64,000 nt of DNA, from assembly GCA_030267565.1 (NCBI GenBank), contig BRXU01000041.1, forward strand, positions 1-64,000. Reading direction: 5' to 3'. The notes beneath the pieces are model-generated. The model was not told where the DNA came from and made no database searches. It worked only from the letters and a program-made list of their open reading frames with translations. Position 1 is the stretch's first letter, and every line of letters begins with the position of its first letter. Below are positions 32,585 to 53,452 of the stretch, piece by piece. A program made the translations under genes and the position numbers. The DNA comes from Pleodorina starrii (taxonomy: Eukaryota > Chlorophyta > Chlorophyceae > Chlamydomonadales > Volvocaceae).

Positions 32585-32831
<247 letters not shown>

Positions 32832-44801: not shown

Positions 44802-47800
44802 TCACACCCCCTCGGAACCGCCGCACTGCCCAACATTATTGCTGCCGCTTCCGGCGACTGCTCCGTCGTCAGCAGGGGTTGCTGCGGCGACGCCGCTGGC
44901 GTCGCCGCCGCACCCAAAGTACGACATGAAATTCTGGTAGCGCTTCTGACTGCTGACCGCCTCTTCCGCCGCGCTGTCGTACGGTCCGCCGACGTTGGCG
45001 GCGTCGGCGTCGGTCGCGGACAGGGACATGGCGCGCGGTGCGCGGCCGCCCTGGAGGCACAACCGCAGTCGTTCGCGCTCGCGAGCACCGTACTCCTCGC
45101 ACCGCTGGCGGGCGGTTGTGACGGGCGGGCGGGCGGGCAGCAATTGGTATTAGTTTGGAATAAAAGGTATTAGGGTTTTAAGGCGGCGTTTGGCATTGGT
45201 TAGGGTCCCGCAACGGGGAGCGGTTCATCAACGCAGCAGCAGGCAAGGGCCCACCGGCAAGGGACCGGAGCCGGGACCTCAGAACGCCGTTGCGCCCGGG
45301 TATCGCTGTACCAAACAACGGCAGCAACCACACCCGCTCTGTTCGTCCCGCCAGGCAAACACATCAATGACGCTACTCTGCGGACGGCGGCCGCCACCCC
45401 GCCCGCTCGCTATCTACACCCCAATACGGTACCGTACCGTACCGTACCGCACCGCACCGCACCGCACCGCCCCCGCCCCCGCCCCCGCCCCCGCCCCCGC
45501 CCCCGCCCCCGCCCCCGCCCCCGCCCCCGCCCCCGCCCCCGCCCCCGTACCTTCCAGGCGGCGTCAAGCTCCGGCCACCTGCCCAGTGCTTCCATCAGCG
45601 CACCCCTCCGCATGCCGTACACCTCCGTCATGCGCACAGCCACCACGCTGGCGGTGCGGGGGCAGCCGGTCAGACAGCCGTACTCTCCAAAGTAGTGACC
45701 GGGCTGGGGGGCCGGGAATGAGATGACGGGAGATAACGGGGGAATGAAGAACAGGGCAGGGCAGGGCGGGGCAGGGAGCCGCAGGAGCGAGGGACGGGGC
45801 AAGGCACATACGCAGGGTAGGAAGGAAGGAGGAAAGGAAGGAAGAAAGGAAGGAGGATAGGAAGGAGGATAGGAAGGTGCGGGGGCTGTGCTTCATTCTG
45901 CTTCGCGTTGTTAGTTGGTGGCCAGTGTTGGCGCAGGTGAGCGCGGTCTGATGAGGCGGTTGATTGGTTGGTGCGTTCGTACCGAAAATCCGGAATCTAT
46001 CGAAGGAAAGCGAGCCCATCCATGCAAACGGCACGCAGGCACGACGGAATCGCAAAATGCAGTGTACGACAACAGTAGTTTATCGTCGTAGTAAACTATC
46101 GGGGCACGACGCAACACGTAACAAGATGTATGTCGCATCATGCCTTTTGAAAAGGACCGGCCAGCGATGCCAGATCAGTGCATCTTGGCATCGCATGTAC
46201 AAATCGCGTATATACGGTACATGTGAGGAACGAGCCCACAATTAAGTAAGCAAGGGCCCAGCCGCTTGTGTGGTGTATACATACATGGGCCGCATGTCTT
46301 ATAATATGTACCTTGAGCGTGCGAACCGGTTTGTACGGCACTTTACAGTCGTACGACATCCGCCATCTGCGTCGGAACTCCGTCTGCGACTTGATACACG
46401 CCGACGACGACGACGAGCGGGCCCGCGGCGGCGGCGTCAGCGTCTCGTCGCCATCGGGACGAGCCGCCAACGGCGACGACGCAGAAGCCCCGGCGGAAAA
46501 CATCCTGGATCCAGATCCGGATTCAAATGCTGCAGCAACATCCGCCGCCTCTGCTGCTGCTGCAGCTGCCGCGCGGGGGTCGTCATTCATTGGCGCCGGT
46601 CCCCCCTGAACCGAGGCCTGAGGCGGCGGCGTTGCCGTTGGCGGCGTCAGCATCGCCGCGGATCCACCGTACATCTCAAGTACGACGTCACCCCTGCGGC
46701 CGCGCGCTTGCAGGCCGCCGCCGGCGACGCCGCCGCCGCTGCTGCTGCTGCCAGCGGCGGTGCCGAGCCGTAGCTGCACCGAGGACACCGAGTTCGGGCA
46801 GGCCGCGGCGGCCGCCGGCTGCTGCGAAGCCGGCCTCCCGCCGCCGTCCCTCAGCTCGCCCGCTGGCGTGCTTGACGTTGCGGCGTTGGTGGCGGTGTGG
46901 ATCGCAGTCCCTGATGGGCCTTTGGTGCCCAGTTGCTGCTGCTGCTGCGTGGGCACTGACAACTGGCCAGCAGCAGCAGCAGCAGCAGCCTCCCGCCCGC
47001 CGCCACAGCAGCGAAGGTACTGCCGGACCTGCAGTCGGCCCTCTACGTGCACAAGAGGCAGCGGCCCGATGGGGCGAAAGCAGGCGCAGGCGCAGGCGCG
47101 GGCGCGGGCGCAGCGGTATGTTATTATGTGGGATGAAGTACTCTAGTAGCAGGGGACGTCATGGTTGCCGGCAACCCGGTGCTGCACCCACACGGGCCCA
47201 AGTCCATGCCGTGCGTCCTCGATGCATGTGTGCCTTTGTCCGTATGTACAGGCGTACTCAGCCAGGCCCACCCACCACTCCCAACGCATCCACAACCCCT
47301 CCACGCGCCCCTCCACGCACCCCTCCACACACCCCTCCACGCACCCGTCACAAAGTACATCTCCGTGTCCCAGCCGCCCTCCATGACCACGCACTCCCCT
47401 TTGCCGTAGAACTCCAGCTTGAGCGCCGCCGACAGCTCCAGAACCAGCGCCTCGTGGTGCCGGGAGGCGTCGCGAAGAAACGGCACCCGAGCGATGAGGC
47501 GGGCGTGGCAGCTTCGGAGCACGTCGCGGCGCAGTTCGCACGGCAGGGCTGCGGAGGCAAGGGGAGAGGGGGCAGAGGAGCCCATCTGATCGGACCTGGC
47601 CGGGCCTGCCCGGGTCGGCGGTTCCTGTCCCCGGCGCGCATCATCCTGCCTTCTCCCGAACCCGGACGGAACTGCTCGCGCGGCCCTGATGCATTTCCAT
47701 CCTCCTCTTCCTCCTCCTACTCCTTCTCCATCCTCTACAGCAGCCACCCTTACTTCAGAAGCGAGCCGGCATCAATCATTAACCAACGACCCTTCCCATC

Positions 47801-50800
47801 TATGTCCCTACCTTCCTCTCTCCCTTTCCCACCCCGTGCCACGCCCGCCCCACACCCGCCCCACCTCCCCTCCGCCCCTTACTCCTCACCCGCCGCCCTC
47901 CCCCCCACCCACCCGCCACCATGTCCTCGTCCTCCTTGTCGTTGAACTGCTTGGCCGCCACGTAGCAGTAGTAGCTCTTGACGCGGGTGGCCAGAGCGGT
48001 GGGCAACGACTGGGCACTCAGAAAGTCCTCCACACAATCCATCAGCTCCGACCGGGAGATCTGAAGGGAGGGAGGGAGGGAGGGAGGGAGGGAGGGAGGG
48101 AGGGAGGGAGGGAGGGAGGGAGGGAGGGAGGGAGGGAGGGAGGGAGGGAGGGAGGGAGGGAGGGAGGGAGGGAGGGAGGGAGGGAGGGAGGGAGGGAGGG
48201 AGGGAGGGAGGGAGGGAGGGAGGGAGGGAGGGAGGGAGGGAGGGAGGGAGGGAGGGAGGGAGGGAGGGAGGGAGGGAGGGAGGGAGGGAGGGAGGGAGGG
48301 AGGGAGGGAGGGAGGGAGGGAGGGAGGGAGGGAGGGAGGGAGGGAGGGAGGGAGGGAGGGAGGGAGGGAGGGAGGGAGGGAGGGAGGGAGGGAGGGAGGG
48401 AGGGAGGGAGGGAGGGAGGGAGGGAGGGAGGGAGGGAGGGAGGGAGGGAGGGAGGGAGGGAGGGAGGGAGGGAGGGAGGGAGGGAGGGAGGGAGGGAGGG
48501 AGGGAGGGAGGGAGGGAGGGAGGGAGGGAGGGAGGGAGGGAGGGAGGGAGGGAGGGAGGGAGGGAGGGAGGGAGGGAGGGAGGGAGGGAGGGAGGGAGGG
48601 AGGGAGGGAGGGAGGGAGGGAGGGAGGGAGGGAGGGAGGGAGGGAGGGAGGGAGGGAGGGAGGGAGGGAGGGAGGGAGGGAGGGAGGGAGGGAGGGAGGG
48701 AGGGAGGGAGGGAGGGAGGGAGGGAGGGAGGGAGGGAGGGAGGGAGGGAGGGAGGGAGGGAGGGAGGGAGGGAGGGAGGGAGGGAGGGAGGGAGGGAGGG
48801 AGGGAGGGAGGGAGGGAGGGAGGGAGGGAGGGAGGGAGGGAGGGAGGGAGGGAGGGAGGGAGGGAGGGAGGGAGGGAGGGAGGGAGGGAGGGAGGGAGGG
48901 AGGGAGGGAGGGAGGGAGGGAGGGAGGGAGGGAGGGAGGGAGGGAGGGAGGGAGGGAGGGAGGGAGGGAGGGAGGGAGGGAGGGAGGGAGGGAGGGAGGG
49001 AGGGACGCCTTGCCGCGGGTTTGTTTTTTGATGTCGACGAACCCTTATATTGATTCTCCTCGCTAATCTTACCACCCTCCAGAACGAACCCTAAACCAAA
49101 CGGTGCAAGCCGCCTCGCAGCGATTCTGTCTTCTGCCACTACTGTCGCCTTGCTGCTCCGCTCCGGCTCTCCCTGCTCCCACCTGCCGTGTCGGCTATTA
49201 GGGGGGCCACACCGGACCCGCCCCAAAATCAGGCCCCCCGCCCCTCTTTCAGTTCGTAAAGCAAAACCTGTTCAGATGCCTGGCCAAGCAGGCCGCTGCC
49301 CAGCTGGCCCACCGTCCTTTCCCCCTCTATCTGCTTCCCACCCTCCAACTCTCCACCTCCCCCCCACCATCCCCACCTGTCCTCGCGCCCGCCTACCTCG
49401 TACTTGTTCGCCCTCCCCGCGATTGAGTTTGCGGTGGATATGATGTATCCCAGCGTGACCACCCCGATCAGCATGCCCACACACGCCATGCAGCGCTCAG
49501 CGGTGGTAACCGGGAACACGTCGCCGTAGCCCACCGTGGTGTAGGTGATGACCACAAAGTACAGAGAGGTGAGGTACCTGCGTTGCGTCGCGTTGCGTTG
49601 CGTTGCGTTGCGTTGCGTTGCGTTGCATCCCCGGTCCGTGCGTTGGCACCAGCGGGACAGGCTGTGCGGCGGCGCGCGGCGAGCACGGCACGGCGTGTGC
49701 ATGATCAACAACAAATTTCGTATTGGTCAGCTGTACCTCCTCATGTTTTAAAGCACGAGGTACAGCTTGACATGCCCCTGGTGGGAAAGTAGGAGCGTCG
49801 GGATCACGCGGTCCCAACCCACGCCTCGCGGCATGCTGCTTGCTGGAGACAGGGTAACGAGCCAGCCAATCAAGCAAGCCGACGCTGCTGATGGAGCCCC
49901 CCCGCCCAAATCACCGACGACCGACCCCGCCCCACCCCTCAGTGCGTGCCCCACCTCTCAAAGTTGCCTGCGTCCTGCAGCCCCGCCGCCTCGGCCCAGG
50001 TCCCCGTCAGGCCCTTGTCCTGAATGACCGCCAGGAAGAACCAGGCCGAGGCGCTCATGTGCAGCACGAGCACGCCGCCAATGATGTACGCCAGCACGCG
50101 CACCACGGCGGCGCCCTGGCTCTGCTCCACGTTCTGGTACAGAGCGCTCCGCTGCGGAAGGGCGGAGCCGAGCAGCGGATTGCGGATAGCGGGGGGGGGG
50201 GAGAGAAGCCGGCGGGAGTGTCACCAGCTAGCTAGCTAGCTCGCTAGCTGGCTAGGAGGAGGAACACTACTGTGACTTGGGTCACGGCTGTACGGTATGT
50301 GGTAATGGCTAGGTAGGCATGCAGGATGTGCCAAGGTGCCACCACCCTGCACGTCGCCTAACCCCTGCCTGCCCTCCCTCCCTCCAGCCTCCGCCCTCCG
50401 GCCACGGCACCCGCTACCGTGCTGGCCAGCGCCGCCTTTCCCCCCGGCACAAACCCTACCGCTGCCTGCCTGCCTGCCTGCCTGCCGGCCTGCGACCTCA
50501 CCTATCTTGACCACCACACACACGCAAGCTCACACACGCTCCCTGCCTGCCGGCCTGCGACCTCACCTATCTTGACCACCACACACACGCAAGCTCACAC
50601 ACGCTCCCTGCCTGCCGGCCTGCGACCTCACTTATCTTGACCACCACACACACGCTCAAGCTCTCACACGCTCTTACGTGCATCCTCTTGGACACCTCGA
50701 GCAGCCGCGCCAGGCGTATCAGCCGCAGCAGTTTGAGCAGCTGCATGAAGGAGGACAGAGAGCTGGTGATCTGCGGGGATAGGAGGGAGGGAGGCAGGTA

Positions 50801-53452
50801 GGGACATACAGGGGTGGCGCAGAGGAGTAAGGGAGCGGAGGGTAAGGGGGGCTCAGCCTAGGGAGGAGGGTTGACTGCTGACGTGACAGCAGCAGGGGGA
50901 TATCGAGTACTGGTGCTGGGTATGGGGCGACACGCATAGGCAAGCGGGGCTGCAGGGGGAGGGGGTTAAACAGGCGGGTCAACAGGAGCGTACTCGGGAG
51001 CAGATATACACTGCCAGAAAAGGCGCGGACTGCACCTTTCTGGGTGATCCGTTTGGGTTTCCACTGCTGAAAAACGATTCATTCATCCATTCATTCATTT
51101 ATTCATAAGGAAAACCACGGCACCAGCCACCAGCCCGCTCTGAACCAACACCAGACCCGGCATCTGGCAATGCGCCACCATCCAGGCTGATACAACCCTA
51201 AACACCCTGCTGAAGCCCTTAAACCCCGAAGCCCCTATAGATGCTAAGAACGAGTACTCAGCCAGGCCTCTCGCTCTCGCTTACATTCCCCCAGGGCAGT
51301 GCCGCCAGCACGTCGACCACGAACCAGCCGGTGAGGTAGTTTGCTGCGATGAGTCGGCGGGAGGTGAGGACTGTGTGGCGCCGGGCTGCGTCCTCGCCCC
51401 TCCGCAGCGCGGTTCGGAAGTTGAAGGGAATGTCCAGCAGGAAGGCTCCCCAGATGAGAAAGTCGATAGCCTCTTTGGAGGGGCAGGCAGAGTGGGAGGA
51501 CGGAGAGGTGGGGTGGGTGGAAGGTAAGGGAAGGCAGGCAGGCAGCGAGGCGGGGGAAAGGTTGGGTTGGTGCGGTATGTGGCTGGGTGCGTTGCTCACC
51601 GCGGCGAGGACGGAAGGAGGGGAGGTAGGTACGATACGGAGGCAACCTCCGCCACATCTCAGGCTCCCAGCAGCTTACGGCTCAAATTGTTTCATAAACA
51701 AGGACAGTGGGTGGGGCCTTGCATTAGGTGAGACCCATACAGTAAAGTAGCACGCGCATCGAGGCTGGTAAGCATTGCATCCCGACGGGCGGCACGGCGG
51801 CGCTGTGTTGTACAAAGGCTAGGCGCCCACCACGACGCGCACCGCAAAGTGCATACGTCACATCGTACCGCACGCGCGCGGGCAATCATCAACGGGTCTG
51901 GACTGCGGGCTCGCTCACCGAATGCGCTGATGCGGTTTTCGTCTTCGTAGTGGAAGCACAGCAGAAAGGTGGTGACGAATGCAACGTACATCAGGCAAGC
52001 AACGATGAACCCGTCCCTGGAGCGCGAGAGGGGGACAGGAGGGGACAAGGGAGGGTAGGCAGGGGCGAGAGGGGCAGAGGATGGCCGGGTCGGGAGAGAG
52101 GACGCAGACGGGTTGGGAGCAGGCAGGGCAAGCGGCACGTGCGCAGCGGTGCACGTGCGCAGCGGCAGCAAGCGACACATGCGCAGTGGCGAAGGCTAAG
52201 TTGCGCTCTCCCTACGTAGGGGTACGTAGGGAGAGCACAACATTGCCTCGCCACTACGCACGATTCCCTCATTACCGGCCGAGCACGCAGGAAGGAAGCT
52301 TCAGCTAGCGCCTTGCCCACCCTCTGCAGGCCGCCGCACACCGCACCTGCCCACATCCAGTCCCTTGCCCAGCCAGACCACCGAGTTCCGACCGAACGTC
52401 ACGGTTCGATCACGTCCGTCATGCACATGACGACAGCAGCCTGATCGCGGCGCGACTCCATCCCCACCGTCCGCCGCCCTCCCCACCTCCACCCCTCAGC
52501 TCACCAGTAGCTCCGAAACCTGGAGTCCGGGTGGATAATGTCCCAGGCAGCCACCAGCAGCAGCTGCCGCAACCCCTCCAGGAGGGATATCGGCGGCTGC
52601 GGCAGGGAAGGGTGCGCCGTCGCGCCGCCGCCAACTCCGTCGCCGTCAACGCCGTCGCCATCTGGGTCCCCATCTGGGTCGGCGGGAGGCCACTCGATGG
52701 CGCTGCGGGCGGCTGCCACGAAGCGCGACCAGCCGCGTGCGACCCGGTGGCCGCAGGCGCGCCGCCTGCCGTGACAGGTGCGTCCACGACCATCCTGGCG
52801 ATGCCAGGCGAGGGCACGGGCAAGGACGGTTTTCTTTTTTGTTGACCAAGCGTTTCAAGGAGAGGGTGAAGAGCGCACTGCATTGGGCCCGTGCACGATC
52901 ATTCCGGTGGAGGGAGCCCCCCCTGCTTACCAGGGCAGGCAGCACAATCGGCGGCCAGCGCCTGGCCGAGCCAAGTTGTTTGTGTCAGTGATGACACACA
53001 CCCCGGGTGCAACCGCAACGCCCGTCGTGCGCGCAGCAGGCCGCTTGCGGCGGGGCCCTGAGCTTTCCGCTCGCAAGTAATGTTGCGCCACCGAGCACAG
53101 CACCACAGCTCCAGGCAAGGGCACTGCAATCTGCCCCGTCGTACTTCGTCGGTGGGTCACTTACTTCGTCGCTGGAGTCCTCGCTGGATTGGAGCTCAAT
53201 GGATTCGCCCAGAGGCCGAGCTCTGATGATCCTGGGGGGGCGGGCCCACCGCTGCTGTGCAGTGGAGCATGGCGGCGGCGCTGGTTCGCGCAACGGCAGG
53301 AGGGGCCCATCCACGGCAGAGGCGGGCGGTCGTTGTACAGCAAGCGATTCTCTGCCGTCGTTTGCCCAGCACGATGTCGGGTTAAGATTGCATGTGCCGT
53401 GCTGGCTGAAGTCTGCCATGCCGCTGCTCGGACGAAGAACCATACCGTCCAT
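44802..53452 (-). CDS. Voltage-gated K+ channel with cyclic-nucleotide-binding domain
   Basis: Twelve exons proposed: 53452-53165, 52794-52505, 52016-51919, 51472-51285, 50770-50678, 50151-49955, 49577-49397, 48060-47913, 47548-47345, 47042-46312, 45703-45551, 45104-44802. All junctions are GT-AG and phase-compatible, and the total is 2,874 nt (957 aa plus stop). S1 is at about 194-216, S2 229-245, S3 270-287 and S4 300-316 (KLLRLIRLARLL, a basic residue every third position). S5 is at about 334-354, the filter TVGYGD at 399-404 and S6 at 413-435. A C-linker follows, then a cyclic-nucleotide-binding fold from about 517, with the cassette FGEYGCLTGCPRTAS (Glu813, Arg822). It belongs with plant Shaker/HCN/EAG-type channels and acts in a membrane. 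The 3' end of exon 10 and the exon 2 acceptor are the least certain parts. Confidence 0.9.
45426..45547 (-). repeat. (GGGGGC)13 plus GGTAC repeat at the 5' end of intron 11
   Basis: On the coding strand the donor AAG|GTAC at 45551/45550 is followed within six bases by about 13 copies of GGGGGC (45547-45469) and then by CGGTG/CGGTA pentamers to 45426. The G-runs could form quadruplexes in the pre-mRNA or in DNA. Confidence 0.95.
45800..45885 (-). repeat. CCTT/CCTCC-rich tract in intron 10
   Basis: Irregular GGAA and AGGA units on the plus strand (CCTTCCTT on the coding strand), about 100-180 bp upstream of the exon 11 acceptor. This is another pyrimidine-rich simple repeat in this gene. Confidence 0.85.
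46312..47042 (-). other. Low-complexity insert exon inside the cyclic-nucleotide-binding domain
   Basis: Exon 10 starts by completing Glu563 and the strand EGRLQVRQYLR, then adds about 230 residues rich in Ala, Gly, Ser and Gln (QQQQQ, runs of Ala, Ser-rich acidic parts) before exon 11 resumes the fold with PGHYFGEYG. Ordinary domains have only a short loop there. The proposed donor AAG|GTACAT at 46312 keeps phase 0. Other in-phase GT sites would shorten the insert, for example near 46680, where GDVVLEMY could run more directly into PGHYFG-like sequence. Confidence 0.6.
47297..47344 (-). repeat. 12-bp tandem repeat creating serial splice donors (intron 9)
   Basis: Directly after exon 9 the coding strand reads GTGCGTGGAGGG, GTGTGTGGAGGG, GTGCGTGGAGGG, GCGCGTGGAGGG. 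Three of the four units begin with a usable GT donor. Twelve is a multiple of three and the units have no stop, so using a later donor would add AWRG-like tetrapeptides to the domain without a frameshift. Confidence 0.9.
48065..49005 (-). repeat. (CCCT)n array, about 235 copies, forming the acceptor tract of intron 7
   Basis: 941 bp of uninterrupted AGGG on the plus strand (CCCT on the coding strand). It ends three bases before the AG at 48062-48061 that precedes exon 8 (ISRSELMDCVEDF). The whole array is therefore a polypyrimidine tract abutting a 3' splice site. It reads as P-S-L-P or E-G-G-R in every frame and is not coding. Confidence 0.98.
49581..49625 (-). repeat. (CAACG)9 at the acceptor of intron 6
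   Basis: Nine pentamers (CGTTG on the plus strand, one with CGTCG) end three bases before the acceptor AG at 49579-49578. A purine-containing repeat here replaces the usual polypyrimidine tract. Confidence 0.9.
50478..50677 (-). repeat. 65-bp minisatellite, three copies, at the donor of intron 5
   Basis: GCCGGCCTGCG occurs at 50484, 50549 and 50614, each followed by ACCTCACNTATCTTGACCA and CACACACGC. The third copy is slightly altered and runs into the donor GTAAGA at 50677. Copies 1 and 2 are nearly identical. Confidence 0.93.
52205..52236. other. Perfect 14-bp-stem hairpin in intron 2
   Basis: GCTCTCCCTACGTA, loop GGGG, TACGTAGGGAGAGC. It lies in the intron between exons 2 and 3 of the channel gene, just after two copies of GCACGTGCGCAGCGG (52136-52168). 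It may be a tiny foldback insertion. Confidence 0.85.

Follow-up and report, generated by a model that had tools for sequence, protein, structure and literature searches.

A pure CCCT array of 941 nt as the probable polypyrimidine tract of a 3' splice site in a channel gene of Pleodorina starrii

In Chlamydomonas, the 3' ends of introns are enriched in C, and constitutive introns, i.e., those that are not retained, are marked by di- and trinucleotide repeat motifs (PMC2830987). Tandem repeats cluster toward the ends of introns, notably in C. reinhardtii and V. carteri (PMC3887541). In a further study, which deals with repeats around gene bodies, splice sites are not mentioned in the available main text (PMC11686069). 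In human PKD1, intron 21 contains a polypyrimidine tract of 2.5 kb according to a cited title and of about 2 kb according to the text (PMC11696556). Among the titles and abstract openings of the literature matches listed, which mostly left subscription papers outside, none described an acceptor tract formed by a pure tetranucleotide array of kilobase length.

Introns with distant branch points are also known; in these, a pyrimidine tract lies adjacent to the branch point and is followed by a long AG-free zone. The available text describes them as located up to 400 nt away, and in front of a human tyrosine phosphatase sigma exon, AG is absent from a zone of 1126 nt, and potential branch points reach as far as -1079 (PMC1431707). 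Normally, AGs further than ~8-12 nt from the branch point are used (PMC7969005). Natural lariats with C branches were reported in rat, where 12 of the 14 introns branched at C and 2 at G; the consensus was CC, at a distance of 17-49 nt from the acceptor (PMC6879206).

Here, we describe an intron in P. starrii that may be relevant to both types of branching. The assembly of the bisexual strain NIES-4479 comprises 95 contigs and 136.1 Mb (PMC10256686). The window, i.e., the whole stretch of DNA that was analysed, is 64,000 nt long. It contains a gene with the following features, given by window coordinates and strand:

44802..53452, minus strand: gene of 12 exons, encoding a 958-aa channel that bears a cyclic-nucleotide-binding domain; 11 of 11 introns are GT-AG
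49397..49577, minus strand: exon 7, encoding the pore and the following helix (...YTTVGYGD...NKYE)
47913..48060, minus strand: exon 8, 148 nt, encoding ISRSELMD..., the region after the pore helix
49579..49626, minus strand: tandem repeat ending at the 3' splice site of intron 6, period 5, without internal AG
45467..45547, minus strand: tandem repeat rich in G, 13.5 copies of a 6-nt period, located 3 nt into intron 11 from its 5' end

The 12 exons (53452 to 44802) translate into 957 residues and one terminal stop, i.e., 958 codons. Pfam matches above cut-off, on 801 of the 958, were to PF00520, PF07885 and PF00027 (Ion_trans, pore and cNMP_binding, respectively), which together define a voltage-gated channel with a cyclic-nucleotide-binding domain, and the PDB chains that align to the protein include SKOR, HCN1, KCNH2 and AKT1. 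Elsewhere in the window, positions 1-28254 at the contig start are occupied by a 28-kb satellite of the heptamer TGTGGAC (4034 copies, 98%; longest exact run, 731 copies), and a pure (AAT)82 array at 32585-32831 lies in a 2-kb stretch of 44% GC, the rest of the window being richer in GC. A search of positions 28000-64000 against Rfam at gathering scores gave no match.

The junction between exons 7 and 8 is backed by an annotated P. starrii protein, P0001, which is 91% identical and contains the same junction, RANKYEISRSELMD. Its locus tag is PLESTM, which we take to denote the male strain of P. starrii. An insert at this junction is also absent from four relatives of three other species (two proteins of Volvox africanus and those of Edaphochlamys debaryana and Chlamydomonas schloesseri). 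A fifth relative, the V. reticuliferus model P0006, begins at exon 8; proline-rich residues precede exon 8 in this model, and the predictor perhaps failed at intron 7 there too. When P0001 was compared with the genome, 14 matches were found, 12 of which are the channel exons in order, and the other 2 are weak and located elsewhere. Since the exons match P0001 in order, the idea that exon 8 belongs to a mis-joined neighbour was rejected. The 18 residues that open exon 12 (window 45051-45104) are missing from P0001, which may reflect an alternative acceptor or a difference between the models. A search for split gene models ending by exon 7 yielded five proteins, 29-36% identical, none of them named. 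The paper on the assembly, as far as available, names RNA sequencing as support for its gene counts (PMC10256686).

Intron 7, which separates these exons, is organised as follows:

48061..49396, minus strand: intron 7, 1336 nt, from GTAGGC to CCCTTCAG
48065..49005, minus strand: (CCCT)235 array (AGGG on the plus strand), polypyrimidine tract of intron 7; 100% pure by TRF and by a unit check
48061..48064, minus strand: TCAG, end of intron 7 and predicted 3' splice site of exon 8; junction also present in P0001
49009..49012, minus strand: CAAG, the next AG upstream of the acceptor
49010..49034, minus strand: 13 As, located upstream of the array and downstream of the next-but-one AG; candidate distant branch sites
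49291..49390, minus strand: 5' part of intron 7, rich in G (GC skew +0.66)

An earlier, sequence-only reading had proposed a 941-bp pure (CCCT)n array that abuts the acceptor of exon 8. Both statements were upheld. TRF reported a period of 4, 235.2 copies, 100% matches and 0% indels for 48065-49005, which on the plus strand is a pure (AGGG)235.25; in a unit-by-unit check, the first 940 bases consisted of AGGG units throughout, followed by a single A. A chance origin of a pure tetranucleotide array of 941 bases was ruled out, as it is far too long. On the coding (minus) strand, the (CCCT)n of 941 nt ends in CCCTTCAG, directly followed by the ATC of exon 8, and the junction formed there is the one present in P0001. 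With more sequence included, the coding-strand end of intron 7 reads CCCTCCCTTCAG, followed by ATCTCC. Exon 7 ends at 49397, after which GTAGGC follows, and exon 8 starts at 48060. Thus, the pyrimidine-rich tract and the YAG of a canonical 3' splice site are found at the start of exon 8; the branch A expected ~17-40 nt upstream is missing, the nearest A being located at -950. The purine run on the plus strand extends over 943 nt (48063-49005) and is a kilobase polypurine/polypyrimidine tract in an intron of the type known from PKD1. Judged by its letters, the plus strand with its 235 GGGA units would have the capacity to form triplex or G4 structures.

Among the CCCT tracts at acceptors, which form a genome-wide class, the array is an extreme case. 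The genome contains 805 ends (139 + 143 + 171 + 352 in the four edge phases) of uninterrupted CCCT stretches that are 32 nt long or longer, on which ground the option that the array is specific to the channel gene was rejected; a pure CCCT pattern of 192 nt matched the genome 9121 times, overlaps counted. The sequence-only reading had presented the array as a feature of one gene; it is real at channel exon 8, but such tracts form a class across the genome. A CAG located 0-8 nt after (CCCT)7 was found in 137 genome matches, compared with 37 matches of the mirrored pattern. Placing CAG on the 5' side of the array gave 52 matches, and on the same side GAC gave 45 and GCA, in many cases as part of GCAG, gave 76; in these counts, one array may be counted up to three times, the controls alike. 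Directly 5' of AGGG arrays, donor-like GTG was found 33 times vs. 14 times in the mirrored pattern.

For closer inspection, 60 loci were sampled, all on contigs C1 to C4 and belonging to two of the edge phases; they represent 49 distinct tracts, one of which was dropped as it was near the locus end, leaving 48. A CAG within 5 nt of the tract end was present in 11 of the 48, the mean at offset positions being 4.5 (p 0.007). This excess is modest, and it fades when up to 14 nt are allowed (17 of 48, compared with 5-15 at the offset positions and 14 when the 5' side was reverse-complemented). CTG was found within 5 nt of the tract ends in 20 of the 48 and was commoner than CAG, partly because half of the sample was chosen by T followed by non-C. 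Codon scores oriented 30 of the 48 tracts as sense and 17 as antisense, a result that was not relied upon. On contig C3 of the genome, the loci L080 to L088 (6.06-6.13 Mb) represent one CCCT tract that was copied with a shared downstream flank in both orientations within 70 kb, with up to 698 nt of uninterrupted pyrimidine; this looks like a segmental duplication. On contig C4, a cluster of CCCT stretches covers almost 6 kb (3241292-3247142), which far exceeds the array in the window.

It is very improbable that the array owes its length to an error in assembly or polishing. The output of two assemblers was merged and the gaps were filled, but the assembly was made from high-fidelity PacBio reads (PMC10256686). 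The longest pure arrays among the 48 other sampled tracts, of 1144 and 948 nt, show that arrays of similar size are present elsewhere in the same assembly. High-fidelity PacBio reads as a rule span 1 kb. Still, the true length of the array may differ from the assembled 941 nt.

Homology indicates that several other tracts are located at acceptors as well. Pfam was run on 40 ORFs that flank 38 of the 48 tracts and were chosen by codon score, the other 10 tracts being left out. Matches at or above cut-off were found at eight tracts. At six of these, the C-rich strand is sense (cyclophilin, Rpb1 repeats, TPR, RINGv, pherophorin and ABC transporter), and at two, L069 and L036, it is antisense (glycosyl hydrolase 85 and class I tRNA synthetase); this difference is not significant (p 0.29). 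Weaker matches at six tracts were divided into four sense and two antisense. Ten short exon peptides were then picked by eye from 16 loci. In Pfam, five had no match, that of PPIL2 gave a weak off-target match, and those to APH (0.0061) and to a propeller family (0.033) were below cut-off; three of the six peptides that were run against NCBIfam had no match. At the exon itself, the matches of the ABC transporter (0.0069) and the propeller-like peptide (0.033) are weak. For others, the support is better. The PPIL2 peptide aligns from its first residue after the acceptor (E 1.3e-21), and the peptides of methylthioribose kinase (NCBIfam E 2.8e-13, PDB E 1.3e-7) and HflX (E 1.5e-7) match too, their NCBIfam matches being below the full-length cut-offs of those models. 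Matches were also obtained for peptides of pherophorin (E 4.1e-12) and an RCC1 repeat (E 6.3e-5). The putative acceptor lies 2 nt beyond the tract in PPIL2, methylthioribose kinase and RCC1, 12 nt in pherophorin and 22 nt in HflX, and the Rpb1 ORF, which bears the C-terminal repeats, begins 2 nt past its tract. The tracts themselves measure 63 nt at PPIL2, 300 nt at methylthioribose kinase and 465 nt at pherophorin, vs. 943 nt at the channel.

The array in intron 7 is probably the polypyrimidine tract of a true 3' splice site of the spliceosomal type that was expanded as a microsatellite from the C-rich 3' end of a volvocine intron and now stands at the extreme of the genome-wide class. Slippage would have expanded the pre-existing C-rich tract. 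Such growth would presumably be tolerated, and the repeat could lengthen without damage to the gene, because each unit stays polypyrimidine, introduces neither A nor stop and, having no AG, creates no cryptic acceptor. U2AF would bind at any point along the array, and the terminal CAG would serve as the sole acceptor within the last 948 nt. The repeats that survive at acceptors would then be those that add no AG. Within the channel gene, 5 of the 11 introns (5, 6, 7, 9 and 11) have a tandem array no more than 5 nt away from a splice site, and the two arrays on the acceptor side (introns 6 and 7) have no internal AG. The last 100 nt are C-skewed in all 10 introns measured (introns 2-11), and the first 100 nt are G-skewed in 9 of these 10.

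The position of the branch point is constrained by the composition of the array. Apart from the terminal CAG, the As nearest to the end of the intron are bases 950 and 951, with no A in the 947 nt between. The sequence-only reading had stated that the branch point must lie upstream of nearly 1 kb or inside the repeat, which is correct insofar as any A is at least 950 nt upstream and the alternative would be a non-A base within the repeat. Thirteen As are found near the array (-950, -951, -960 to -962, -964 to -969, -972 and -974). The nearest upstream AG, an AAG, is followed by 948 nt, and the AG upstream of the 13 As by 983 nt. The AG exclusion zone of 948 nt thus far exceeds the 150 nt by which distant branch points are recognised, but a branch consensus is lacking at its upstream end beside the tract: the 60 nt upstream of the tract contained no YTNAY motif, the AG-free sequence before the tract is just 3 nt long, and the first YTNAY motif is located at -1138, behind other AGs. 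Strict AG scanning from a distant A would select the AAG as acceptor and create an insert of 316 codons. Since the relatives do not have the insert, either the AAG is bypassed from a distant A, or a C inside the repeat branches. Provided that the acceptor is used, a C in CTCCC near the acceptor has a little less than an even chance of being the branch, the unit fitting YTNCY, i.e., the consensus with A replaced by C. Under the same proviso, branching at one of the As between -950 and -974, followed by skipping of the AAG, is a plausible though minority choice, and branching by something else has a small share.

Taken on its own, the proposal that U2 picks one of the many CTCCC sites 17-49 nt from the CAG is a tentative one. 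The geometry would then be normal at any length of the array, and the lariats would carry C branches resisting debranching. The last 950 nt of intron 7 contain 234 YTNCY sites, 8 of which are in the window from -17 to -49 with the C in a CC context. Together with the 947 nt without A before the terminal CAG, this fits the placement in the rat lariats mentioned above, but it remains a match of motifs. Known systems use C branches in a small minority of cases, and CTCCC pairs with U2 more poorly than the consensus does. The branch-site problem recurs in the genome, because at four other tracts an acceptor-like AG is preceded by 313-473 A-free nt; one of these, at methylthioribose kinase, is homology-backed. 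If C were the branch there as well, Pleodorina would have a class of 3' splice sites built from repeats, with every CCCT unit acting as tract and as C-branch site at once, A-free for hundreds of nt and indifferent to length, a generalisation that is rather unlikely.

The other possibility, i.e., branching at one of the As at -950 to -974 beside the 5' end of the array, after which the spliceosome passes the AAG and ~950 nt to reach the CAG, is doubtful. The distant-branch introns discussed above provide a precedent, including the long zone at tyrosine phosphatase sigma, but their described distances are shorter, and the AAG should compete as an AG at normal distance. Furthermore, the 3 AG-free nt and the lack of YTNAY beside the channel tract, as mentioned, do not favor it. 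The evidence from other tracts is mixed. The methylthioribose kinase tract has YTNAY motifs 21 and 30 nt upstream in an AG-free zone of 108 nt, and YTNAY occurs in the upstream AG-free zone at 7 of 20 acceptor-like tracts vs. 4 of 29 others, with none at channel intron 7. However, the AG-free sequence upstream of the tract has medians of 13 nt in acceptor-like tracts and 20 nt in the others (p 0.93, 20 vs. 29 tracts), a noisy test as the 20 include the window array and L036, which is antisense by Pfam. Folding predicted that upstream intron 7 sequence pairs with the first ~200 nt of the array and that the 3' 746 nt stay unpaired; hence, structure does not obviously shorten the distance between branch and acceptor.

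The upstream AAG might also be used at times, yielding a channel with a Pro/Ser/Leu-repeat insert of 316 residues between the pore helix and exon 8. The added 948 nt are in frame, and no repeat frame contains a stop. However, the insert is absent from P0001 and the four other relatives, AAG is a weak acceptor, and an insert of 316 residues is expected to break channel gating. Occasional use of this AG is therefore among the least probable of the options considered.

The sequence-only reading had also suggested that the length of the repeat tunes the inclusion of exon 8. The array does touch the acceptor, and tandem arrays as a rule vary in length. However, exon 8 is 148 nt long, and its skipping changes the reading frame and terminates the protein ahead of the matched cyclic-nucleotide-binding domain, so that length could be at most an on/off or efficiency control. 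Moreover, the simple-repeat motifs of Chlamydomonas mark constitutive introns, as mentioned above. Such tuning is thus improbable.

If the predicted exon 7/8 junction is made, intron 7 either branches at a non-A within the repeat or bridges ~950 nt between branch and acceptor, and either solution, if true, would widen the known choice of 3' splice sites. With natural copies at 63, 300, 465 and 943 nt, the limits on distance and branch base are directly testable. A rule is suggested as well, i.e., that the repeats able to grow at acceptors are those without AG.

As in the introns of C. reinhardtii and V. carteri (PMC2830987, PMC3887541), repeats in this GC-rich genome are located toward intron ends, and a C-enriched 3' end replaces the usual polypyrimidine tract; in those accounts, in contrast, the repeats are generally di- and trinucleotides, and the available texts mention neither a kilobase acceptor tract nor a branch-site problem. 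With PKD1 intron 21 (PMC11696556), the locus shares a kilobase polypurine-polypyrimidine tract in an intron that is G4-capable. The human tract is, however, discussed in the available text for replication inhibition and breaks, whereas the Pleodorina tract is a pure tetranucleotide array that ends exactly at an acceptor. The rat neuron free circular introns with C-branchpoints (PMC6879206) resemble it in the CC-type context 17-49 nt from the acceptor, here as a motif fit. The distant-branch introns, e.g., of tropomyosin, PTB exon 11 and the OGDH megaPPT (PMC1431707, PMC7969005), share the long AG-free stretch before the acceptor; the verified examples described have a branch motif at the far end of this zone, whereas Pleodorina intron 7 runs through 947 nt without A and without a motif beside the tract.
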